Position numbers and translations under genes: made by a program. Below, in pieces: positions 2,392-26,703 of a stretch of DNA of 34,987 nucleotides. Source of the stretch: a virus. The notes beneath the pieces are model-generated. The model was not told where the DNA came from and ran no database searches. It saw only the letters and a list, made by a program, of their open reading frames with translations. Numbering within the stretch: the first letter of the stretch is position 1; each line of letters starts with the position of its first letter. The stretch covers positions 1-34,987 of IMG/VR virus record IMGVR_UViG_3300049489_001017; one strand, 5' to 3'.

Positions 2392-2448
2392 CTCGATCAA
2401 TATCAGTGCTTTCTATAATCTGATGGTTATATTATACTCATGATCGAG
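2392..2448 (+). promoter_or_regulatory. Inverted repeat masking the nuclease start codon, with a -10-like TATAAT between the arms
   Basis: CTCGATCA (2392-2399) is the exact reverse complement of TGATCGAG (2441-2448), and the second arm includes most of the nuclease ATG (2440-2442). A smaller inner pair, ATCAG (2402-2406) and CTGAT (2420-2424), could stack inside. A perfect -10 hexamer TATAAT lies at 2414-2419 without a clear -35. RNA read through from upstream could fold and hide the start codon. RNA begun about 7 bases after the hexamer would lack the first arm. The repeat is seen directly; the regulatory effect is inferred. Bases 2352-2391 hold nothing else that I recognise. Confidence 0.35.
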
Positions 2449-3234
2449 TATAATCCTAGCGATTTAAGACTTAGCGTTTCAAAAGCAAAAACATTTTCAG
2501 ACTGTAGAAAAAAGTTTAATTTTGTTTATAATTTAAAATTCCCTCGAAAAGAATTTGAATATCATACATTTGGCAAGTTAGTTCATAGAATATTAGAAAC
2601 TTTTCATCAAGACATTATAGATGGAAATACATCTTCTTATAATGTTCTAATGAAAAAACACTTTGATTTAGCTTTATCAGAATATAAAGATAAATTAACA
2701 AAGGAAATGAAGACCGAAAGCTATGAAATGTGCAAGTCCTACCTTGACTTGATGAAGGAACATCACTATAATGTCATAGCGTGTGAGCAGGACTTTAAGT
2801 TCAAAGTAGCAGAAGACATAGTTGTTTCAGGTCAAATTGATAGAGTAGAAATTGATAAAGATAATGTTTTGCATGTTGGAGATTATAAAACAACAAAAAA
2901 TGCTAAATATCTTAAAAATGATTTCTTTCAATTATTAACTTATGCTTATGCATTATTTCTTAATGACACAAGTATTACGAAAATAAGAACATCTTATATT
3001 TTATTAAGACATAAATTTGAATTTGTTACTAAAGAGTTTAATGTAGATGAGATAATAACTGTTGGTGAAAAATTTATAGAATATGGAAAAAAGATTAGAA
3101 ATGAAAAAGATTTCCCTGCCAACCCAACAAAATTATGTGAATATTGTGAATATTCACAGTTTTGTGAAGAAGGCAAATTATTGATCGCGAAAAACAAACA
3201 ATTTAACTTTAAATTCGGAGAAAGCTCATGGTAA
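2440..3234 (+). CDS. PD-(D/E)XK exonuclease with Fe-S cysteines (RecB/AddB/Cas4-like)
   Basis: 264 residues. It carries the full catalytic set of the RecB-like nuclease family: H49 (GKLVH), D134 (SGQIDR), D148 and K150 (HVGDYKTT), and the QxxxY motif Q164-Y168 (FFQLLTYAYA). Four cysteines, C22 near the N-terminus and C233, C236 and C242 near the C-terminus, match the 1+3 spacing that holds a [4Fe-4S] cluster in AddB and Cas4. There is no helicase domain, so it resembles a free-standing Cas4/RecB-domain exonuclease, probably acting on DNA ends during recombination or replication near the gp46-like gene. It overlaps the next gene by 7 bases. The start codon lies in an inverted repeat and has no Shine-Dalgarno. 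Codon choice shifts toward G/C-ending codons around 2703-2815. No cas genes or repeats are nearby, so a CRISPR role is not indicated. Confidence 0.88.
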   Translation: MIEYNPSDLRLSVSKAKTFSDCRKKFNFVYNLKFPRKEFEYHTFGKLVHRILETFHQDIIDGNTSSYNVLMKKHFDLALSEYKDKLTKEMKTESYEMCKSYLDLMKEHHYNVIACEQDFKFKVAEDIVVSGQIDRVEIDKDNVLHVGDYKTTKNAKYLKNDFFQLLTYAYALFLNDTSITKIRTSYILLRHKFEFVTKEFNVDEIITVGEKFIEYGKKIRNEKDFPANPTKLCEYCEYSQFCEEGKLLIAKNKQFNFKFGESSW

Positions 3235-3676: not shown

Positions 3677-4927
3677 ATGCAATCATCAGTAGTAGAAGGT
3701 TCTCAAGGAAAATTAAGTGTCCATTGTATTATGGACAAAGATGAGATCAAAAAGAAACGCCATGAAGTTTTAATGGCAGTTAAAGATGCTCCTGTAAAAG
3801 GATTTCGTAACGGCAAAGTTCCACTTAATATAGTGTCTCATGTATACAAAGATACTATTAAACATGCTTTACGACAATCTTTAGTAGAAGAAGCTTATCA
3901 TCAATATCTATTCGATAGCAATGTTAAGCCCTTTGGTTCGCCAACTATTAATGATGATGTACTATTGAATGATGATGTTTTTGAATGTTCATTTGATATG
4001 TACAAAATGCCAGAATTTGAATTGAAGCCTTATAAGGATTTAAAACTTCCCAAGTATGCTTCTTCTCAAACTAGAGATGATTTAATTGAAAAATCATTGC
4101 ATGATATCAGAGTTAAATTCTCAGATTCTAGATTATTTAATGATGATGAATTTGTGCAAGAAGATGATCAATTAATCATTTCTTATGATGCATTTGTTGA
4201 TGGTGAAAAGGTAGATGAACTTAGTTCTGATGGAGAGCTGTTCTCTATTGGTTCAAGTAACGTTCCTGAATTTGATACTAATATCATTGGTATGAAAGCA
4301 AATGAAACCAAAGAATTTACTATTAATGCAAGTGAAGCGTTAAATAATGCTTGGGCAGGAAAACAAATAACATTTAAATTATCTATTTTAACTGCAAGCA
4401 AAAGAGAACTTCCTCCATTAAACGATGAGCTGGCTCAAAAATTAGATAAGCCAGACGTAAATACTTTAAGGTATTTTGTTGCATCAGCAGTTGATGCTCA
4501 AGAAACTCTTAAAGAACGTAATTTCTTAATGAATCAAGTAATTAATACTTTAATTGCTGATTATGATTTTGAAATTCCTGATTGGGCTGGAGAACAAGAA
4601 GGCGCTAATTTAGCTAATGCTAGAAATGCTAGTTTCGATTCTCTTGATGATGCTCAAAAAGCTGAATTTATTAAGGTTGGAAAAAATAATATTAAATTAG
4701 CTTTGGTTTTACAAAAGATTCGTGATGAAGAGCCTGAAGCCCAATTAACTGATTCTGAAGCAATTGATTCTTTTAAGAGCAATCTTGAAATGCAAATGCC
4801 TACAGAACAAGTTGAAAATTATTTGAAACAAATTGATCATAATAAACAAGGTGGTTTAATTGTTTCAAAAGTCAAAGATGAGTTTGTGTTAGATTTTATT
4901 ATTAAACATTCTACTGTTAGTGAGTAA
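3677..4927 (+). CDS. tig: Trigger factor-like ribosome-associated chaperone / peptidyl-prolyl isomerase
   Basis: 416 residues, close to the bacterial length of about 430. The N-terminal ribosome-docking signature GFRNGKVP lies at residues 42-49, as in cellular trigger factors, and is followed by the expected NIVSHVYKDTIKHALRQSLV and by a KPFGSPTI segment. Residues about 150-240 are an FKBP-type isomerase domain (EDDQLIISYDAFVDGEKVDE, then NVPEFDTNIIGMKANE, then EFTI). The rest is the helical C-terminal chaperone arm region, with the typical LPPLNDELAQKL linker. All three trigger factor domains are therefore present. In bacteria this protein binds the ribosome exit tunnel and folds nascent chains. 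In a phage it could favour folding of phage proteins or replace the host factor. The ATG has only a weak upstream TAGGT. Trigger factor genes are not part of the usual phage set. Confidence 0.88.
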   Translation: MQSSVVEGSQGKLSVHCIMDKDEIKKKRHEVLMAVKDAPVKGFRNGKVPLNIVSHVYKDTIKHALRQSLVEEAYHQYLFDSNVKPFGSPTINDDVLLNDDVFECSFDMYKMPEFELKPYKDLKLPKYASSQTRDDLIEKSLHDIRVKFSDSRLFNDDEFVQEDDQLIISYDAFVDGEKVDELSSDGELFSIGSSNVPEFDTNIIGMKANETKEFTINASEALNNAWAGKQITFKLSILTASKRELPPLNDELAQKLDKPDVNTLRYFVASAVDAQETLKERNFLMNQVINTLIADYDFEIPDWAGEQEGANLANARNASFDSLDDAQKAEFIKVGKNNIKLALVLQKIRDEEPEAQLTDSEAIDSFKSNLEMQMPTEQVENYLKQIDHNKQGGLIVSKVKDEFVLDFIIKHSTVSE

Positions 4928-4935
4928 GGATTTAT

Positions 4936-5220
4936 ATGAGTCATTTACCTGAGAAATATGCTAAGAAGCTTGCCGCAATTGATTTTCTTGATTCCGTTGA
5001 ATCATCTTCTTCTGAAGATCTGAAAAAGAAGATTATTGAGTGTGAGCAAAAGATCAATAAGATCCAAGAAGAAAAAGCAGCTGATGATAAACTAAATGGT
5101 GCAAAAGAATTAGTTAAGGACTATTCTTCAGCTTATCGTGAAGCAGAGGGTCTAGAAGTTGCTAAGATTAAAGCTTGTTTGTGGTTATTAGAAAATCGAG
5201 GCGCAGGATCTGAAGAGTGA
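4936..5220 (+). CDS. Hypothetical small coiled-coil protein (94 aa)
   Basis: Not recognised. 94 residues, highly charged, with one predicted long helical or coiled-coil stretch from about residue 22 to 80 (DLKKKIIECEQKINKIQEEK and onward). It starts 8 bases after the trigger factor stop behind TAAGGA, a good ribosome-binding site, so it is very likely in the same operon. Its stop overlaps a GTG start of the next gene (GTGA). No cysteine clusters or membrane segments. A partner or regulator of the trigger factor or of the downstream protease is possible but unsupported. Confidence 0.65.
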   Translation: MSHLPEKYAKKLAAIDFLDSVESSSSEDLKKKIIECEQKINKIQEEKAADDKLNGAKELVKDYSSAYREAEGLEVAKIKACLWLLENRGAGSEE

Positions 5221-5495
5221 TACAAATAACAACTTTTAAAAGTTGTTGCGGAAGTTCTGGTTCTTTATGGAAATTAGATTTTACTGTTTCCGTAGAGTTC
5301 CAGAACTTTTTAGTTTCTAATGGCTTTATAGAAAATACTGTTTTAAAAAAAGCAAATATTCTTCATGTTAATAATGATGAATTTGCTATCTCATCATCTT
5401 ATGGTGATAATCAATTAAAAATTAGCTGCAAAATATCTAGTTGTATTGTTGCTACTGAAAATTTAAAAGCTTTAATTGAGTCATATGCAAAATAG
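5217..5495 (+). CDS. Hypothetical small protein (92 aa)
   Basis: Not recognised. 92 residues, started by GTG that overlaps the previous stop (GTGA). Predicted mostly beta, with strands such as WKLDFTVSVEF, ANILHVNN and NQLKISCKISSCIVA, and a short C-terminal helix. A Cys-Cys-Gly lies near residue 10, and two further cysteines near 70-75 are not arranged as a standard zinc finger. The gene overlaps the following protease gene by 11 bases when that gene is started at its ATG. The compact overlap pattern supports expression from the trigger factor transcript. Confidence 0.55.
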   Translation: MIQITTFKSCCGSSGSLWKLDFTVSVEFQNFLVSNGFIENTVLKKANILHVNNDEFAISSSYGDNQLKISCKISSCIVATENLKALIESYAK

Positions 5496-6117
5496 ATCCT
5501 CAATTCATTATATTAAATCTAAAATATTTTCAGAATATGATAAAATATCAACTTCATATCATGAGGTTGGTCATATCATTTGTGCTATCTATCATTATCT
5601 AAAACCTCATGAATTAAAAATATTTAAAGAAGCAGACAATTACCACTATGAAGGAATTGCTGTTTATGAATCTTATTCAGATTTTTTATCCAAAGCAAGA
5701 AAACAAGATGTTAAAAAACTTTGCTATTCAGAAATAAGTATCTCTTATGCAGGTACTGTTGCTGAAAGATTATTATTTTCTAGAATATCAGGTAAAAATA
5801 AACTACTAAAAGTTCTTCATGGATTTTCTACAGAAGATTTTAAAGAAGTTAATTATATCATTAACAAATATAATTTAGCTAAACCAGGAAGACTAAGGAA
5901 AAGGCTTAAGTCTAAAATTACTACATATACAGAAAATGTATTAACTACATTTTGGCAAGATGTAGAATTGTTATCCTATAAATTAATTAGTAAAGGATCT
6001 TTAAAAGAAAAAGAAATAAGATCCTTACTGGTTAATGAATCTACAAATAAAAAAGTTTGGACTCATAGATACAAGGTTATAGATCAGCTAAGTAAAGGCA
6101 ATGTTAAGCCCAAGTAA
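5485..6117 (+). CDS. Stand-alone M41 (FtsH-type) zinc metalloprotease domain
   Basis: 210 residues from the ATG at 5485; an in-frame TTG nine bases earlier is a weaker choice. The zinc site is HEVGH at residues 26-30 in the context TSYHEVGHIICAIYH, as in FtsH (YHExGH). Downstream are AGTVAERLLF (89-98), equal to the FtsH GGxxAExLxFG helix, and D118 in GFSTEDFKEV, in the place of the third metal ligand. There is no AAA+ ATPase domain and no membrane segment, so this is only the peptidase half. FtsH peptidase normally needs its ATPase ring. The protein might work with a separate ATPase or digest unfolded substrates by itself. It closes the trigger factor cluster. Roles such as capsid maturation or turnover of host regulators are guesses. 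Confidence 0.8.
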   Translation: MQNRSSIHYIKSKIFSEYDKISTSYHEVGHIICAIYHYLKPHELKIFKEADNYHYEGIAVYESYSDFLSKARKQDVKKLCYSEISISYAGTVAERLLFSRISGKNKLLKVLHGFSTEDFKEVNYIINKYNLAKPGRLRKRLKSKITTYTENVLTTFWQDVELLSYKLISKGSLKEKEIRSLLVNESTNKKVWTHRYKVIDQLSKGNVKPK

Positions 6118-6182: not shown

Positions 6183-9100
6183 ATGTTTGTTTCGTTACAT
6201 AATCATTCAAGTTATTCATTATTAGATGCTTTATCAACTCCCAAACAGCTCCTACAACGAGCTAAAGAGTTAAACCAACCTGCCATTGCTATTACAGATC
6301 ATGGTACGTTAGCGTGCGCTTGGGATGCCTACAAAACGGCAAAAGAGCTTGACGTAAAACTAATCATAGGTATTGAAGCATACTTTGCATCAGATGATGA
6401 AAAATTTAAACATATAATTCTTATTGCTAAAAATGCTATAGGATATAGAAACTTATTAACATTAAATAAAAATGGGTTTGATAATTTAAAATTAGTAGGT
6501 AAAAAAGTTTATTCTGTTATTAATTGGGAGCTTTTAGAAAAATATTCAGAAGGATTAATTTGTTTAACTGCTTGTGGTAATGGAATTGTCGCTCAGCATT
6601 TAATGGATAAAAACTTCATTGAAGCAGAAACTGTTGCTTTAAGATTAAAAAATATATTTAAAGATGATCTTGCTTTAGAAGTACAAACTCATAATTTAAA
6701 AACTCATGGAAACTTCTATACAAAAGAAATTGAACAGTCTTTTATTAATAGGCAAATAATTAATTTAGGTAAAAAACTAGATATCAAAGTTGTTCCAACA
6801 ACAAATTCTCATTATATTTATAAAGAACAAGCAAACGTTCAAGATGGTTTATTAGCAATTAGCTCTCATCAAACAGTTTATTCCAATTACAGATTAAAAT
6901 ATAATGTTCCTGATTTATATGTTAAGTCATATGAAGAAGTAAAAGCATTCTTCTCAAGAACATATGGAGAGGAATATGCTGAACAATTATGTAAAAACTC
7001 TGTAGAATTTGCGGAAAAATGTGAAATTCCTGATTGGATTAATCCACAATTCTCTAATGCTTCAGGAAAAGAGCTTCCTGAATTTCCTGTTAAGGACGAA
7101 CCAGATTATAATGAATTCTTAGCTTGGAAGAAAGATGATGTATTAGATGAAGACAAACAATATTTAAGATTTGTTTGTGAGAAGAATTTACATAAAGTTC
7201 CTAATACACAAGAATATAAGGATAGATTAGAAGAAGAGCTTGAAGTAATTGAATTTCATGGTTTTTCTTCTTATATGTTAATTGTTGCTGATTATGTAAA
7301 TTGGGCAAGAAAAAATGGTATTGCTACAGGCACGGGTCGTGGTTGTTTAACTGGGGAAACACGAGTTTTAACAAAAGATGGCTTTAATAGGCTTGATAGT
7401 GTTGAAATTGGAGACGAAGTATATACTCATACTGGAGAAATACATAAAGTAAAGAATAAGTTTTGCTACCAAATTGATGAAGTTGGTTTAAGTATAAAAA
7501 CAGACTTTTCTTTTGATAATATCAATCTTACAAAAGATCATAAAGTATATGCTTCGACTTCTGAGCAAACACAGCCAACATGGATCAAAGCTGAAGATCT
7601 AAAAATTGGAGACTTTATATTTATGCCATTTCCAGTAAGGCAAAATAAAAGTAATTATATTTTAAAGAAATATCTTTTATCATTACTTAATTTTAATAAA
7701 AATGGAGCTATAATTAATACTAAGTCTTTAAAATATGCATTGGAAATAAAAGAAGAATTATTATATAATAAAATCCCATGCTCAATCTTAACAATAGAAG
7801 ACTCTTATGGTTTGATGTCTTATCAAGTAATTTTTAATAAATCAAATAATATTAAAGACAATGGATACTATTGTAAAATCACTGAAATCAATGAGTTAAA
7901 ACTAACTGAAGTATATGATATTTCAGTAGAAAAAGATACATCCTACGTCACTTCTAATTATGCGGTTCATAACTCAGCAGGCGGGTCCCTAATAGCATAT
8001 TTAACGGGAATTCATTGTGCTGATCCTATTAAATACAATCTAATCTTTGCTCGTTTTCATAATAAAGAGAAGCAGTCTTTTCCTGATATTGACTTAGACT
8101 TTGCTCCATCAGGAAGAGATAGAGTTTTAAATTATCTTAAAAATAAATATGGAGAAGATCGTGTTGCCCATGTATCTAACGTAAATACAATTACTCCTAA
8201 AGTCTATGCAAGAGATATTTCTAGAATCTTTGAATTAGGAGGATCGAAAGAACAGGCTGTTATCATAGGAGATACTATTGCCGATATTATTCCTTCTGAA
8301 ATTCATAGCATTGATGCTGCTATTAAAGAAGTAGCATTGTTTTATGAATATGGAAAGAAATATCCTCAATTGATAGATATGAAAGAAATAAATGGCAAAT
8401 ACCGAGCATGGTCAACTCATGCAGGTGGTGTTATTATTTCTAAAAGATCATTAGTAGGGTTAGTTCCATTAAGAAGAGATAAAGATGGAGTGCTTTGCTT
8501 AGAATATGATAAAGTAGCAGCTGAAGATAATGGTCTTGTTAAAATGGATATTCTAGGACTATCAACCTTAGACACAATCCAATTAACATATGATTTATTA
8601 AAAAGAGCTGGAAAAGAAATTACTAATGATAGTAACTTTGATGTATATGATGAAAAAACATATAATCTATTAGCCGCAGGAGATACATTCTGTGTATTCC
8701 AATTAGGAACTTCTGGCGGAACAATGGAACTTTGCAGAGGCATTAAACCTAAATGCATTGAAGACATTAGCCATATCAATGCATTAGCAAGACCTTCTTC
8801 AAAAGAAATTAGAATTCCATTTATTAAAGCTAGAGAAAAGAATGAAGTTAAATTATTACATCCTTCATTAGATAGAGCATTATCTGGAACATTCGGATTT
8901 GGTTTATATGAAGAATGTTTAATGTATTTGGCAGCAGATGTTGCTGGATGGTCTTTACATAAAGCTGATGGATTAAGAAAATTAACAAAAGAAAAAGGCA
9001 AAAACCCCAAGAAAGCCAAAGCTTTATTAGAAGGGTTTATGAATGATGCTATTGCTAATGGCATAGAGCCAGATATTGCAAAAGAAATTACTTATGGAAT

Positions 9101-10223
9101 TGTTTCTACATTTAGTGGTTATGGTTTTAATTTAAGCCATTCTATTTTATATAGTATGCTTTCATATCAAACAGCATATTTGAAAGCACATTTTCCTACA
9201 GAGTTTTTGTTAGCAAATTTAATGCAAGAAGTAACTTCTAATTCTTTAAATTCTGAAGATAATATAAAGAAAATTAAAGAAGAATTACGCAAGCATAATA
9301 TTTCAATTTTACCTCCAAATATAAATGAATCTGAACTTCATTATACAATTTCGGATGAAAAGCTTCTTACAGGATTAAATGGATTAAAGTTTGTTGGAGA
9401 AGATGCTATTAGAGATATTATTGATAAGCGTCCATTTAAAAGCTTTTTTGATTTTATGGTTAGAGCAGATACAAGAAAAGTTAGGGCAAATACAATTCAA
9501 GCTTTAGCTGCTTCAGGAGCATTAGATACATTTAATCTTAATAGAAAAGATATGTATCTATATTGTCAGGATTATAGAAAGAAACTTGGCGTTTGGTTAA
9601 AGAAACATAATCCATTAACTGAAGAATTTAATTATCCTTGGGATAATAATAAGGAATGGTCAAAGCAAGAACTATTTGCTTTGGAAACCAAATTTATTGG
9701 CGAATCTTTTATTTGCTCATTAAAAGAAGCTTATCCTAAATTATTCAAAGAAGATTATATTAAATTCAAAGATATTAAATCATTAGAGAATAAATCCCAA
9801 ATTAAATTAACAAAAGGAATTATTAAGAGCTTGTTTGAAATTACCATAAAAAAAGAAGGTTCTAAGTTTTATGGTAAAAAGATGGCTAAGATTTTACTTG
9901 AAGATGGAGAGAATAATTTTATTAATCTAACTATCTTTCCAGACAGATTAGAAAAGATAAATGCAAGAATGAATGAAATTCATAGGGGATTATGCTTGGT
10001 CGAAAATATTGGGCTATCATTTTCTGCTTCTGTTAATATTTATGAAGATGAACCTTCTTTGATTTTAAATGATCTTTTTATGGCTTATGATATTCCTGCC
10101 TTGCCAAAAGACCTTACTGCTAAAAAAGTTACCATTAAAAAAGAAAAATCTGAACAAATTAGTATTGATGATATTGAATCAGATTTAATTAATGAAGGTT
10201 TACTTAGTCTTGATGATGATTGA
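6183..10223 (+). CDS. dnaE: DNA polymerase III alpha subunit (C family) with an in-frame intein
   Basis: 1346 residues as translated; 1136 after removal of a 210-residue intein (residues 388-597), close to bacterial DnaE. The N-terminal PHP domain has H6 and H8 (LHNHSSYS) and TDH (38-40). The polymerase core has GRG/SAGGS split by the intein, the catalytic aspartates D635 and D637 in PDIDLDF, and the third, D789, in LVKMDILGL. Fingers (WSTHAGGVIIS), a helix-hairpin-helix region and a C-terminal OB-type segment follow. There is no DnaQ-like exonuclease domain, so proofreading would come from the PHP domain or elsewhere. The acidic C-terminus resembles the usual tail. It is followed by a strong terminator, so the gene ends its transcription unit. 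Phages more often carry A- or B-family polymerases, so this places the phage among those with a bacterial-type replicase. Confidence 0.95.
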   Translation: MFVSLHNHSSYSLLDALSTPKQLLQRAKELNQPAIAITDHGTLACAWDAYKTAKELDVKLIIGIEAYFASDDEKFKHIILIAKNAIGYRNLLTLNKNGFDNLKLVGKKVYSVINWELLEKYSEGLICLTACGNGIVAQHLMDKNFIEAETVALRLKNIFKDDLALEVQTHNLKTHGNFYTKEIEQSFINRQIINLGKKLDIKVVPTTNSHYIYKEQANVQDGLLAISSHQTVYSNYRLKYNVPDLYVKSYEEVKAFFSRTYGEEYAEQLCKNSVEFAEKCEIPDWINPQFSNASGKELPEFPVKDEPDYNEFLAWKKDDVLDEDKQYLRFVCEKNLHKVPNTQEYKDRLEEELEVIEFHGFSSYMLIVADYVNWARKNGIATGTGRGCLTGETRVLTKDGFNRLDSVEIGDEVYTHTGEIHKVKNKFCYQIDEVGLSIKTDFSFDNINLTKDHKVYASTSEQTQPTWIKAEDLKIGDFIFMPFPVRQNKSNYILKKYLLSLLNFNKNGAIINTKSLKYALEIKEELLYNKIPCSILTIEDSYGLMSYQVIFNKSNNIKDNGYYCKITEINELKLTEVYDISVEKDTSYVTSNYAVHNSAGGSLIAYLTGIHCADPIKYNLIFARFHNKEKQSFPDIDLDFAPSGRDRVLNYLKNKYGEDRVAHVSNVNTITPKVYARDISRIFELGGSKEQAVIIGDTIADIIPSEIHSIDAAIKEVALFYEYGKKYPQLIDMKEINGKYRAWSTHAGGVIISKRSLVGLVPLRRDKDGVLCLEYDKVAAEDNGLVKMDILGLSTLDTIQLTYDLLKRAGKEITNDSNFDVYDEKTYNLLAAGDTFCVFQLGTSGGTMELCRGIKPKCIEDISHINALARPSSKEIRIPFIKAREKNEVKLLHPSLDRALSGTFGFGLYEECLMYLAADVAGWSLHKADGLRKLTKEKGKNPKKAKALLEGFMNDAIANGIEPDIAKEITYGIVSTFSGYGFNLSHSILYSMLSYQTAYLKAHFPTEFLLANLMQEVTSNSLNSEDNIKKIKEELRKHNISILPPNINESELHYTISDEKLLTGLNGLKFVGEDAIRDIIDKRPFKSFFDFMVRADTRKVRANTIQALAASGALDTFNLNRKDMYLYCQDYRKKLGVWLKKHNPLTEEFNYPWDNNKEWSKQELFALETKFIGESFICSLKEAYPKLFKEDYIKFKDIKSLENKSQIKLTKGIIKSLFEITIKKEGSKFYGKKMAKILLEDGENNFINLTIFPDRLEKINARMNEIHRGLCLVENIGLSFSASVNIYEDEPSLILNDLFMAYDIPALPKDLTAKKVTIKKEKSEQISIDDIESDLINEGLLSLDDD
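7344..7973 (+). mobile_element. Intein in DnaE at GRG^S, with degenerate LAGLIDADG remnant
   Basis: 210 residues running from Cys1 (precursor C388) to His-Asn (H596, N597), followed by Ser598 as the +1 nucleophile. Block A is CLTGETRVLTKDG; block B has T63-x-x-H66 (LTKDHKVYA); a late-B strand is EDLKIGDFIFMP; block F is EVYDISVEKDTSYVTSN; block G is AVHN. The block F histidine position appears to be Thr199. Between the splicing halves, intein residues 111-165 look like the second half of a LAGLIDADG endonuclease (LLSLLNFNKNG, then NTKSLKYALEIKEELL, IPCSILTI and YQVIF), but the catalytic Asp is replaced and the first half is missing. Splicing looks intact while homing is probably lost. The insertion interrupts the polymerase active-site motif, so splicing is required for a working polymerase. 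Confidence 0.92.
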
Positions 10224-14965: not shown

Positions 14966-15442
14966 ATGGCAAATTTTAATTGTAATAGGTGTATTGGTTG
15001 TGATTTTTGTGATTCATGTAATAATTGCAATGATTGTTTAAATTGTAATTTAAGCCAGTATTGTAATTCATGTAATAATTGCAATGACTGTTTTGATTGT
15101 TATGAAAGTAACGGTTGTACTAATTGTGAGGATTGCAATAATTGCATTAATTGCGAAAGATGTAAGGATTGTACAGATTGCATGGGATGTATAGATTGTA
15201 CTAACTGTCATTTATATAATAGTAAAAATAGTTACAGTACCATCTATAACACTAGTTGTTACAATTGTAATAATTGTTACAGCTGCATAAGTTGTGAATG
15301 GTGTAACAATTCTATTTATTGTATTGGCTGCAAATCTTGCGATGAATGCGTTCTTTGCAAAGATATTGTTTCAGGGAAATATATGATTGATAATCACCAA
15401 TATTCTCGGTCTAATTATTTTAATTTAAAACATCTTATTTAG
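14966..15442 (+). CDS. Cys-comb protein: cysteine at every third residue
   Basis: 158 residues with 35 cysteines (22%), mostly in runs of CxxCxxC. Blocks: residues 6-26 (eight Cys), 32-44 (five), 50-80 (eleven), about 96-111 (six) and 117-129 (five), with short Cys-free spacers rich in Ser/Tyr/Asn. The x positions are mainly Asn, Asp, Ser and Ile. The last 30 residues (KDIVSGKYMIDNHQYSRSNY) have no Cys and look like a capping motif. Proteins with this layout occur in large phages and metagenomic genomes, but I know of no established function. A parallel solenoid with disulfides or with metal or Fe-S binding is possible. The ATG follows TAAGGCAA. It lies between two terminators, so it is its own small unit. 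A 22-base exact repeat (54 bases apart) shows recent duplication. Confidence 0.75.
   Translation: MANFNCNRCIGCDFCDSCNNCNDCLNCNLSQYCNSCNNCNDCFDCYESNGCTNCEDCNNCINCERCKDCTDCMGCIDCTNCHLYNSKNSYSTIYNTSCYNCNNCYSCISCEWCNNSIYCIGCKSCDECVLCKDIVSGKYMIDNHQYSRSNYFNLKHLI
15012..15087 (+). repeat. Direct repeat inside the Cys-comb gene
   Basis: A 22-base string occurs exactly at 15012-15033 and 15066-15087 (both begin ATTCATGTAATAATTG). The 54-base period equals 18 codons, one comb unit. The exact identity at synonymous sites points to recent tandem duplication rather than protein-level constraint. Confidence 0.8.
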
Positions 15443-15504: not shown

Positions 15505-16074
15505 ATGGTTATAATTGGATTTGACGTTTCGAGTACTACTATTGGTTATTGTGTTTTAGATATTGGTGAAGACATAAAATATATAGCTAGTGGATTTATT
15601 AAGCCTTGTAAAAAAGGAGATTTATTTTCTAGATTATATAAAACAAAAAGAGAAATAAATGAATTATTATATAAATATACACCGGAGCATGTTGTAATAG
15701 AAGAGATATCTAAATTTTTTCCTAATAAAAGCAAAGCTCAAACTATCATTATGTTAGCTGTGTTTAATCGGATGGTTGGGCTTGAGTCGTATGCATTTTT
15801 AAATAAAGAGCCCTTGCTTCTGCCTGTGATGAGTATTAGATCAACGATTCGCAAGGAAGCCAAGCTGGCTACGATGCCAGATAAAAAAGAATTGCCAGAG
15901 ATTATAGCTAAATTATTAAATATAGAATTTCCTTGGGTTACTAAGAAAAATAAGAGATTAGAAGAAAGTTACGATGTATCTGATGGAATATGTTGTGCTT
16001 TTGCTGGCGCTCATTATATTTCAGGTAAATATATTAAAAAAGCTAAAGTTAAGAAACGGATTAAGAAAAAATGA
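15505..16074 (+). CDS. ruvC: RuvC-like Holliday junction resolvase
   Basis: 189 residues. RNase H-fold motifs: D7 in IIGFDVSSTTIGY, E66/E67 in HVVIEEISK, and the C-terminal acidic pair D157/D160 in YDVSDGICCAFAG. This is the catalytic set of RuvC. It also has the usual middle helices and a basic tail (KKAKVKKRIKKK). The enzyme cuts Holliday junctions, completing recombination started by UvsX, or debranches DNA before packaging in place of T4 endonuclease VII. The start must be at this ATG because the first strand begins at residue 2. The gene appears leaderless (promoter 7 bases upstream) and overlaps dnaJ by 4 bases. About 15778-15890 shows more G/C-ending codons than the rest. Confidence 0.88.
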   Translation: MVIIGFDVSSTTIGYCVLDIGEDIKYIASGFIKPCKKGDLFSRLYKTKREINELLYKYTPEHVVIEEISKFFPNKSKAQTIIMLAVFNRMVGLESYAFLNKEPLLLPVMSIRSTIRKEAKLATMPDKKELPEIIAKLLNIEFPWVTKKNKRLEESYDVSDGICCAFAGAHYISGKYIKKAKVKKRIKKK

Positions 16075-17021
16075 ATTTAAGAGAAGCTTATAGTATATTG
16101 GAAATAGATCCTTCTTCAAGTGATGAAGAAGTTAAAAAGAAATATAAAGTATTAGCTAAAAAATATCATCCAGATATTTGTAAAGAAGCAAATGCTGATG
16201 ATAAATTTAAAAAGATAAATCAAGCATTTGAGACAATTCAAAAAGGTGAAGATCCAAGAGGAAATCCTTTTGGTAGAAGTCAAGTGGATGATATTTTCAA
16301 TAATCCATTTGGATTTAATGTTAACAATGATGTATTTGAGACATTCTTTGGGCAAAAACGAAGAATGGAGCCTGATACTATAATAGAGTTAGTTGTTTCA
16401 TTTAAAGAGTCTGTATTAGGAACTAAGGCTCCATTAAAGTTCAAGAAACAAACAGCTTGTACAGCATGTGAAGGAACAGGAAGTATACATATTCCTACAG
16501 ATTGTAATTTTTGTGGTGGAAGAGGAAAAGTAACATTTTCTCATGGTGGAATGAGAACAACTCAGATTTGTGGCAGATGTAATGGGAAGCAAAAGTATAA
16601 TCCATGTACCATTTGTAAATCTGGTAGAAACTTATCTGAAGTAGAATATACAATACAAATTCCACCAGGAATAACTAATGGAGCTAATTTAAGGTTAGGT
16701 GGAGCTGGTAATTTCGATATTAATTCACAAACATATGCTGATGTAATTTTAACTGTAAAAGTTACAGAGTTAGATAATTTAAAAGTAATTGGAAGAGATG
16801 TTCATTCTAATCTTACTTTATCTTTAAAAGATGCTGTTTTAGGAAAAGAAGTCAATGTCAATACAATTGATGGAATTAAGAAAATAATAATACCTAAAAG
16901 AACTAAGAATAAAGATATTTACAATTTCCCTAATTTGGGGGTAAATAGGGAAGGATCTCATATAGTAAATATAAATGTAGAGTATCCTAATGATATAGAG
17001 GATATACTGGTGAAAATATGA
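16071..17021 (+). CDS. dnaJ: DnaJ (Hsp40) co-chaperone
   Basis: 316 residues, shorter than the roughly 375 of cellular DnaJ. The J domain is residues 1-60, with HPD at 33-35 (KKYHPDICKEA). A short Gly/Phe region follows (GNPFGRS, NPFGFNVN). The zinc region has four CxxC pairs: C130/C133, C145/C148, C167/C170 and C179/C182; the first two keep CxxCxGxG while the last two are less regular (CGRCNGKQK, CTICKSGRN). The C-terminal substrate domain starts IPPGITNGANLRLGGAG. It would stimulate a DnaK-type Hsp70 and deliver substrates; no DnaK or GrpE gene is in the window, so it probably recruits the host DnaK. Phage lambda uses host DnaJ at its origin, so a replication or assembly role is equally possible. 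It overlaps the next gene by 4 bases. Confidence 0.92.
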   Translation: MNLREAYSILEIDPSSSDEEVKKKYKVLAKKYHPDICKEANADDKFKKINQAFETIQKGEDPRGNPFGRSQVDDIFNNPFGFNVNNDVFETFFGQKRRMEPDTIIELVVSFKESVLGTKAPLKFKKQTACTACEGTGSIHIPTDCNFCGGRGKVTFSHGGMRTTQICGRCNGKQKYNPCTICKSGRNLSEVEYTIQIPPGITNGANLRLGGAGNFDINSQTYADVILTVKVTELDNLKVIGRDVHSNLTLSLKDAVLGKEVNVNTIDGIKKIIIPKRTKNKDIYNFPNLGVNREGSHIVNINVEYPNDIEDILVKI

Positions 17022-23998: not shown

Positions 23999-25963
23999 AT
24001 GATGAATAATAAAAACTTAATTTGGGGAGAAATTATAAAGAAAACTTCTAATATTCCATTAGATATTGAAGATCCACTTGTTGTTCATGAACAGTTAACT
24101 TCTTTACATAATTGGGTTGAAACATCAGATATTCCATTGGTTGATGATTTTCTTCCTTTATCTGCTTTAGCTTATCCAAATTACTTAGGTGGTAGCTATG
24201 GTTCTCCTGCTGCTGATTTAAAGAAATGGATTCAAACAGCCAAAGATCTTTATTTTAGACAATCTAAAGGGGAAGACAAATTAACAGCATTAGCAGAATT
24301 AACTAATAATTGGTCAGAAAAAGAATCTGTTAACTTTTTAGAATGGCTAAAGTTTTATCAACATGGTAATCATTTAAAGTATAAAATGGCTCAAGCATGG
24401 TTTCAAGGAAAAGATGTAGATTATCTTTTGCCATTTAAACCTGATAAAAAAGATGAAAACTTACTTGCTCCTTCTATTGATTTTGCTGCTAAAAAAGTAG
24501 ATGTTCAAGATACTTCTGCCGCTGAACAAAAGAAAGCCGTAGAAGCTCAAAAAAGAAAAATATTATCAAGATTAGATTCATTAGAAAAACTATTAAGAGA
24601 TCATGAAAGTCAAATTTTAGTTGAAGATGAACTGGAAATGCTTATTGGTAAAGTTTATGAGTTAAAAACTTTATTCCAAAAAATAAAGAAAACTAAAAGC
24701 GCTGATTTATATTATGCTCAAGTAATTAAAAAAGCCAATATATTAAATCATAATAAATATACAAATGCAGCCAATGTATTATTTGCTTTTGCTGGAGATG
24801 TTCTTACCGAAAAGAAACCCAATGCCGCCCCAATAGGATCTGTTCCTGTTGCTGCTGATAAATTGCCAGCTGTATCTAATCCTAAAGACGCTAAATTACC
24901 TATTGATGGTGAAAAGGCTACTAAATTAGACAATAATAATGCTGATGCTATTACAGATAAAACACAAGATAAAAAACTACCAATAGCTCCTCCTAACAGC
25001 TCTGGAAACGCTGCGCCTGTTGGTCCTTCCAGTGGTTCAGGGGGCGCTCAGCCAATTACACCGCCCGCGACACCTGCCCCAGCCCCTCCCTTTGGTGGTG
25101 GTCAGCTTCCAATTTCTCAGTTGTCCAGAAATCAAAATGAGCCTAACAACTCTCCTGATTTAACTGATTCTAAGAAATTAAATGGAATTTCTGATTTCTT
25201 ATCAAATGTTTCTGGAGATAAAGATTTAAATAATGTTGAAGAAGATTTAGAAGTAGATGAAAATGATGTTTATGAGAAAGATGGAGAGTTAGTTGCTGAG
25301 GCTCAATTAGCCCCTCTAGCTCCAGCTGAAAATAAACCAGCTCCATTACCTGTTGCTGATAAAGCTGTAGCCACAGAGCCTGAAAACGGTGCAGAATCAA
25401 CTATTACTGTATCAGAGGACTTTGACAATTTAATTGATAAAGCTTTTAACAATATCACAACAAAAGATGTTATTAATAAGTTAGAAGAAATTTCAAAGAT
25501 CTTCAGAGTAAGAGAAATTCCAAGACAACTAGCTATTGTAGATTTAATGTTAGATAGATTAGGAATAGCTTCTTTCTTCCCCAATATTGCTGAAGCATCT
25601 AATAAAGCTTTAGAGTCAAATAATTATATTGGTACTCGTATTGATGATGCGTTATCTAAATTACGTGGAACATTAAGTGTTGCAAATATAGATTTAGTTA
25701 ATGGAGAAGGTAAATCATCTGGTAAAGCAAATGATACTATAAATAAATTACAGCTTGATGAAAAGAAAAATCAAGAACGTCAAGATACAAAAGCTAAATT
25801 AAGAGATCAAGAATTAGATAATGCTTCTCAAATGTTAAAGAATGAAAAAGAAACTCCTGAAATTAATGTAGAAGAAGATTTAGCTGAGCCTGTTGTAAAT
25901 GAACCTGTAGTTGAGACTCCTAAACCTGCAATTCCAAAACCTGTAACTCCTGCGATTAAATAA
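23999..25963 (+). CDS. Hypothetical protein with Pro/Gly-rich linker (654 aa)
   Basis: Not recognised. 654 residues, starting directly after the previous stop (TAAATG). Residues about 1-170 are globular and aromatic (WVETSDIPLVDDFLPLSALA; WLKFYQHGNHLKYKMAQAWF). A coiled region follows (AAEQKKAVEAQKRKILSRLD, about 178-235), then a long Pro/Ala/Gly/Ser linker (about 275-385, including PPNSSGNAAPVGPSSGSGGA and PPATPAPAPPFGGGQLP), then an acidic helical C-terminal region (about 400-654; SEDFDNLIDKAFNNITTKDV) and a Pro-rich end (PKPAIPKPVTPAIK). Nucleotides 25020-25110 are GC-rich compared with the rest. The layout suggests a virion or scaffold protein with a flexible hinge. No enzymatic motifs are seen. 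Confidence 0.6.
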   Translation: MMNNKNLIWGEIIKKTSNIPLDIEDPLVVHEQLTSLHNWVETSDIPLVDDFLPLSALAYPNYLGGSYGSPAADLKKWIQTAKDLYFRQSKGEDKLTALAELTNNWSEKESVNFLEWLKFYQHGNHLKYKMAQAWFQGKDVDYLLPFKPDKKDENLLAPSIDFAAKKVDVQDTSAAEQKKAVEAQKRKILSRLDSLEKLLRDHESQILVEDELEMLIGKVYELKTLFQKIKKTKSADLYYAQVIKKANILNHNKYTNAANVLFAFAGDVLTEKKPNAAPIGSVPVAADKLPAVSNPKDAKLPIDGEKATKLDNNNADAITDKTQDKKLPIAPPNSSGNAAPVGPSSGSGGAQPITPPATPAPAPPFGGGQLPISQLSRNQNEPNNSPDLTDSKKLNGISDFLSNVSGDKDLNNVEEDLEVDENDVYEKDGELVAEAQLAPLAPAENKPAPLPVADKAVATEPENGAESTITVSEDFDNLIDKAFNNITTKDVINKLEEISKIFRVREIPRQLAIVDLMLDRLGIASFFPNIAEASNKALESNNYIGTRIDDALSKLRGTLSVANIDLVNGEGKSSGKANDTINKLQLDEKKNQERQDTKAKLRDQELDNASQMLKNEKETPEINVEEDLAEPVVNEPVVETPKPAIPKPVTPAIK

Positions 25964-26703
25964 TGAGACTTAGACTAAGAGATATATTGGCTATAATTCA
26001 GGAAGTATCTCATAAGGAAAAATTACCAGAAACATTTATTTGTGGTGGTGTACCTAGAGATAAAGAAATGAATACTTTATCTAATATTAATGATTTAGAT
26101 CTAACTAATGGATCTGATAGCATTAATATATTGGCTAATAAAGTCTCAGGTATATTGTCAAGAAAATATAATTTATTACAAAAACAATCAAATGATGGTC
26201 ATATATCTTTAATTGTAGGTAATTTAAAAGTAGATTTTTCTTCTCATTTTATTGTTGATGGAGTAAAAGGCAAAACTGAATTAGAAAAAGAAATGTTTAG
26301 TAGGGATTTTACTTGCAATTCTTTATTATTGACATTGGACTTAAAGAAAATTATAGATGTAACTGGTAGAGGTAAAATTGATATTAAAAATAAAGTATTA
26401 AATACTTGTTTAGATCCAAGTATAACTTTAACTAATTCAAAAAATCGAGTTCCAAGAATTGTATATATGGCAGCTAAATTAGGGTTTACAGTAAATCCTG
26501 ACATAATAGAATATGTTAAGAATAATCCTTCTGTAAATAATTTAAATGTAAGAGAGATAACTATTAAAAAAATAAATGAAGCTATTAAATATGATGCTGA
26601 AAAATCATTAAAATTAATAAGCCAAATGAATTTATGGGATTACATTCCTATTTCTAATGAATTACAACCATATTACCAAGCGCATTTGAAAGGAGAAATA
26701 TGA
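25963..26703 (+). CDS. CCA-adding enzyme / poly(A) polymerase-type nucleotidyltransferase
   Basis: 246 residues. Class II nucleotidyltransferase motifs: FICGGVPRD at 26-33 (family GGxVRD), NDLDL with D44 and D46 as metal ligands, RDFTCNSL at 114-121 (family RDFTIN), an IDVTGRGKIDIKNKVLNT segment (131-148), and RVPRIVYMAAKLGF (162-175; family RIxRAxRFAxxLxF). It stops near the end of the neck region, so the C-terminal body and tail that bind tRNA in bacterial enzymes (about 400 residues) are missing. It would add nucleotides to RNA 3' ends; substrate unknown. The gene lies among packaging genes and overlaps both neighbours (1 and 4 bases). No tRNA genes are visible in the window, although large phages commonly carry them elsewhere. 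Confidence 0.85.
   Translation: MRLRLRDILAIIQEVSHKEKLPETFICGGVPRDKEMNTLSNINDLDLTNGSDSINILANKVSGILSRKYNLLQKQSNDGHISLIVGNLKVDFSSHFIVDGVKGKTELEKEMFSRDFTCNSLLLTLDLKKIIDVTGRGKIDIKNKVLNTCLDPSITLTNSKNRVPRIVYMAAKLGFTVNPDIIEYVKNNPSVNNLNVREITIKKINEAIKYDAEKSLKLISQMNLWDYIPISNELQPYYQAHLKGEI

Follow-up and report, generated by a model that had tools for sequence, protein, structure and literature searches.

We argue that large tailed phages of one lineage have trigger factor (TF) as a core gene, and that the phage protein would act on newly made proteins at the exit of the host ribosome. The gene described here lies in a stretch of 34,987 nucleotides, IMG/VR record IMGVR_UViG_3300049489_001017, which we call the window. 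It occupies positions 3677-4927 on the plus strand, begins with ATG, is present in a single copy and encodes 416 amino acids.

Identity and predicted fold

Pfam, NCBIfam, the AlphaFold model and fold matches in the PDB all give the same identification. Three Pfam domains score above their curated cut-offs. These are Trigger_N (residues 1-142, 3.8e-21), FKBP_C (residues 158-226, 6.3e-5), which counts as a PPIase domain, and Trigger_C (residues 262-409, 7e-6). On the plus strand the FKBP-like domain as a whole spans 4148-4381 (residues ~158-235), with its active-site residues partly replaced, and the Trigger_C chaperone region spans 4460-4903. The protein scores 197.8 bits with the NCBIfam equivalog TIGR00115 (tig), whose cut-off is 180.2; the TFs of some distant relatives score under it. 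PHROG 26774 matches nearly the full length (1.4e-33), but this family has no named function and also matches ordinary bacterial genomes.

The nearest solved protein by sequence is E. coli TF (1w26, E 4.8e-19). An AlphaFold model built from a 69-row alignment has a mean pLDDT of 92.8, and its C-terminal region is helical and predicted with high confidence. The top PDB fold match of this model is 2vrh, E. coli TF on a translating ribosome (E 9.9e-23, TM 0.72), and the N-domain matches 1oms with a TM of 0.80-0.81 by target. None of the viral structures in BFVD match the model at E <= 0.001. Judged by its sequence and modelled structure, the protein is a true, full-length trigger factor. A preliminary description had claimed that all the TF domains are present at full length and that the ribosome-docking signature GFRNGKVP sits at residues 42-49 (3800-3823, plus strand). 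Both claims hold, the signature being exactly there.

Synteny, distribution and descent

The window encodes a terminase (TerL), a portal protein, a UvsX-like recombinase, a DnaE with an intein, a DnaG-like primase and RuvC. In GC, both overall and at third codon positions, the TF gene matches the adjacent genes, so there is no sign of a stray insert. All of its neighbours discussed here are on the plus strand. Upstream lies a PD-(D/E)XK exonuclease recognized by a domain match (2440-3234). The first gene after TF encodes a 94-amino-acid protein (4936-5220), and the next, which overlaps it, encodes one of 92 amino acids (5217-5495); the function of both is unknown. They are followed by an M41/FtsH-like peptidase that has an HExxH motif but lacks an AAA+ domain (5485-6117) and by the DNA polymerase III alpha subunit, DnaE (6183-10223), whose intein is a Pfam Intein_splicing match at residues ~416-597. 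The start of the peptidase is unsure (TTG at 5476 or ATG at 5485), and its M41-like assignment comes from a weak Pfam match under the cut-off and from HExxH, which is seen among the members listed. Over 47 loci, the window and 46 others, the genes keep one order: exonuclease - TF - 94 aa - 92 aa - M41-like peptidase - DnaE. TF and the peptidase are found in 47/47, the exonuclease and DnaE, which are the upstream and downstream synteny anchors, in 46/47 each, the 94-aa protein in 44/47 and the 92-aa protein in 38/47.

A scan of viral contigs with the window's TF as a single sequence gave no match, and an alignment was required. With the alignment, 46 viral contigs were recovered, the longest of 481 kb; their TFs share 33-40% identity with that of the window. 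In total at least 73 IMG/VR contigs have a TF of this kind: 47 in the window's clade, about 17 intermediates, 7 in a second clade, and the contigs of loci L168 and L213. Most of these homologues share one syntenic site, between the exonuclease and DnaE. The second clade (L012-L014, L165) has the same site with a TF identity of only ~23-25%, and L167 bridges the two clades. The M41-like peptidase is missing from the second clade and from most intermediates.

Counting TF genes on contigs that were found by their TF would be circular, so a search was run with the exonuclease only. It returned 46 lineage loci (L169-L214). TF is on 40 of these 46 contigs, adjacent by HMM in 38 of them and present also on the contigs of L213 and L214. 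One of the 38, L210, has its TF split in two frames, and the TF of the L214 contig is cut by the locus edge. The remaining six are fragments of 37-129 kb with TF absent from the part covered; the lineage contigs are all fragments, with completeness not stated. TF is a single-copy gene in 16/16 large contigs. On this gene content TF is a lineage-wide core gene and not an accessory one, a point the preliminary description had missed. It must be noted that the 372-kb contig of L213 (loci L253 and L256) has two TF genes as well as a GroEL-like gene and a deformylase.

A TF tree was built with IQ-TREE under a PMSF mixture model with 79 rows. The window's clade and the intermediates together have a support of 100/100 and a stem of 1.08 changes per column. 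A larger group of 45 viral TFs, which takes in the second clade, L253, L256 and L255, is split from the bacterial TFs with a support of 97/83, though this split includes the very long branch of L255. The window's clade, the intermediates and the second clade alone do not form a split because L255 joins the second clade. Among the bacteria sampled, the TF nearest to the viral clade is ~31% identical. This sample was chosen by motif, is biased toward query-like sequences, and has few or no Bacteroidota, Chloroflexota or candidate phyla, so the deepest links in the tree are provisional. The patterns used, which have limited sensitivity, found no member of the window's clade in bacterial genomes.

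One can imagine that the TF is a bacterial gene that reached a viral contig by contamination or misassembly. There are such cases in the viral collection. The TF matches of L016, L017, L023, L024, L027 and L031 have clpP/clpX nearby, and these are probably bacterial contigs, as L002 probably is. Matches in an annotated phage collection were considered too and set aside: they look mostly bacterial, an Acinetobacter record reads tig-clpP-clpX, and the others are unannotated or unverified records. The lineage described here is different. Its TFs form a separate clade, match their surroundings in composition and have no clpP/clpX nearby in the loci tested, except for a clpP match in L214. The gene recurs at one position in dozens of independent phage contigs of up to 481 kb. 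This recurrence already refutes contamination, and we give it practically no chance for the window. The earlier claim that the TF is phage-encoded therefore stands, and the misassembled bacterial contig named there as the refuting outcome is ruled out by the conserved synteny and a tree position outside the sampled bacterial TFs. The L214 contig, which carries a TF, a ClpP-like gene and a distant form of the lineage exonuclease, is either a phage or a mixed contig; its TF (L250) falls elsewhere in the tree, outside the viral clade.

The docking loop and the isomerase pocket

Conservation of the loop was measured over 36 distinct TFs, namely the window's and 35 that were fetched without reference to TF. 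G42, R44 and G46 are invariant in 36/36, F43 is present in 33/36 and K47 in 32/36. When a frame of equal shape is slid along these TF-blind sequences, the docking loop ranks 1 of 410. The final P of GFRxGxxP is present in the window and is kept in only 10 of the 47 clade members, which counts against docking. In TFs the third position of the E. coli FRK triplet varies, being K or P in most sampled bacteria and N in the window. Since that position is free across the family, N45 is no argument against docking. In E. coli the bound fraction of TF (slow, ribosome-bound) is 85% and falls to 20% in an FRK-to-AAA mutant of this loop (PMC11725819). That the docking loop is the best preserved part suggests that the virus brings its own folding help to host ribosomes.

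The gene sits within a replication block, from the exonuclease to DnaE, a position that would also suit a function in replication or assembly. The protein could be an assembly chaperone that works away from the ribosome, on virion or replisome proteins already translated, with the loop kept for dimerisation or substrate binding. The E. coli TF does form a head-to-tail dimer in which the ribosome-binding domain takes part (PMC5722895). However, no other stretch of that shape is as conserved as the docking loop, and the relatives co-carry peptide deformylase, a ribosome-exit enzyme. We consider such a chaperone unlikely.

The isomerase pocket shows a different pattern. In the FKBP domain of the window F199 and F233 are retained, while the E. 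coli-equivalent positions have the replacements F177->V, F185->E, G197->E and Y221->L. Across the window's clade F177, F185, P196-G197 and Y221 (E. coli equivalents) have drifted, and F198 and F233 are mostly kept. The second clade retains nearly all of the pocket residues. As read from these alignments the pocket is partly lost in the window's clade, which had also escaped the preliminary description. We take a conserved loop beside a drifting pocket to mean that docking and chaperoning are selected for more strongly than isomerase activity. The main job of these TFs appears to be the holding and folding of nascent chains and not proline isomerisation.

Even if the partly lost pocket and the split frame of L210 are taken as signs that a host gene is decaying without function, the rest of the evidence goes against it. 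The dN/dS of the viral TFs is 0.05-0.13 in seven usable pairs (two more pairs are saturated), which makes decay unlikely, and TF is intact in nearly all relatives. These ratios point to strong purifying selection along the entire protein, and a functionless relic is barely credible.

Overproduction of an N-terminally complete TF harms E. coli and cuts its protein output, and among 390 bacterial genomes that have more than one TF, a single copy retains the docking motif in 367 (PMC11559001). Additional TF that can still dock is a burden for bacteria, so a phage whose TF retains the motif either depends heavily on docking or gains from that burden. The second option would make TF a host shut-off factor, with surplus ribosome-binding TF slowing host protein synthesis. 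The same harm in excess and the same scarcity of second docking copies speak for it. But phage protein synthesis would suffer too, purifying selection is strong over the whole TF, and the co-carried DnaJ and deformylase suggest help and not poisoning. A shut-off factor is less likely still than an assembly chaperone.

Our preferred account is that TF was acquired long ago as a core gene of a large tailed phage lineage. Its GFRxGK loop would most likely dock at the exit tunnel by binding L23, a ribosomal protein of the host, and the docked protein would shield nascent phage proteins, replacing the host TF or working beside it. Ribosome binding, substrates, timing and competition with the host TF are all inferred parts of this proposal. 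Taken whole, we think it somewhat more probable than its rivals combined. The preliminary description suggested that a phage copy could compete with the host factor and redirect folding toward phage proteins, or slow the maturation of host proteins; we treat these effects as hypotheses.

Companion genes and known systems

Several genes carried with TF, which the preliminary description had overlooked, could act on the same nascent chains. The window has a DnaJ at 16071-17021 on the plus strand, identified by its domains and motifs: a J-domain with HPD at 33, four zinc-binding Cys motifs and DnaJ_C. DnaJ_C is found in 26/26 related contigs of at least 112 kb. HSP70 (DnaK) was found in 0/16 large contigs, and GroEL is present in 1/20 contigs and absent from 19/20. 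The phage DnaJ, probably a partner of TF, would recruit the host DnaK. Peptide deformylase is present in 18/20 contigs, ~9-10 kb upstream of TF in clade members. The window starts downstream of the expected site, so no deformylase is seen there. An M24 peptidase, of the methionine aminopeptidase family, is present in 14/20. These two enzymes would trim N-termini, probably alongside TF.

The deformylase has a SecA-like CxC...C[CH] zinc motif at its C-terminus in 31/32 copies (L034:1304-1822, L035:793-1323 and 30 other relatives), and a Pfam SEC-C match to one of these tails lies under the curated cut-off. SecA is reported to bind the ribosome (PMC6692507), so the tail may be a second device for targeting the exit site. 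Near the deformylase, at L034:2000-2317 and in 34 relatives, there is a thioredoxin-fold protein, with CxxC absent in the two copies read.

This gene content is best read as a virus-encoded toolkit that serves new proteins at the ribosome exit. A stronger version is that the kit (TF, zinc-tail deformylase, M24 and DnaJ) is near-complete, that the window's-clade TF is a docked holdase with reduced isomerase activity, and that it is an exception to the bacterial rule of one ribosome-binding TF. We hold this version tentatively, as it falls a little short of an even chance.

The viral TF and bacterial Tig (TIGR00115; E. coli TF, 1w26/2vrh) have in common the order of three domains, the fold, the docking loop and the length class. 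They differ in sequence, the viral TF being a separate clade at or below the identity given above, and in the C-terminal part, which is ~20 residues below the bacterial median (medians 169 vs 189). In the window's clade the pocket is partly replaced, and the gene is in a phage replication block and not beside clpPX.

Huge phages are known to carry IF1, IF3, S1, S4, S21, L7/L12, EF-G/Tu/Ts, PDF, RF, RRF and SmpB (PMC7162821). Like TF these are phage factors acting on host ribosomes, and PDF is common to both sets; trigger factor is not named among the factors in the main text of that survey. Moraphages have DnaK, DnaJ and Hsp20, and RB43 has a J-domain protein (PMC12619734). These are phage chaperones too, with DnaJ in common, but moraphages have a family B polymerase and some have DnaK, whereas the TF lineage has DnaE, TF and no HSP70 in its large contigs. 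The cyanophage peptide deformylase (Frank et al. 2013, as cited in PMC7162821) is likewise a phage enzyme acting on nascent chains. The lineage deformylase has its SecA-like tail and lies ~9 kb from TF.

The preliminary description knew of no well-described phage system of this kind, and the literature searched agrees. Among the open-access papers covered, none was found to describe a phage trigger factor. Automated annotations of phage TFs may well exist in supplementary tables or subscription papers. A comparison of 224 jumbo-phage genomes lists other chaperones and no FKBP, peptidyl-prolyl or trigger factor, and a Southern Ocean study states that a trigger factor analogue was undetected. 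Huge phages were known for initiation, elongation and release parts, and TF extends this to the step at which nascent chains leave the tunnel. This allows a test of whether viruses replace the first chaperone that new proteins meet. It also bears on TF dosage, since the additional TFs of bacteria have nearly always been stripped of the docking domain (PMC11559001) and TF-bearing phages keep it. TF is also a marker for a widespread phage lineage for which no isolate was found.

A few other features of the window should be mentioned. No tRNA gene was found in it, and a promoter scan did no better than on shuffled sequence. Among the replication genes is a protein with a chitobiase-like CHB_HEX_C/Fn3-associated domain (1138-2118; 45/47 loci). 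A 158-aa protein without a Pfam match (14966-15442) is almost all CxxC repeats (CNNCNDCxNC...). Finally, 25963-26703 encodes the head domain of a poly(A) polymerase/CCA-adding enzyme (PF01743, 1e-9).
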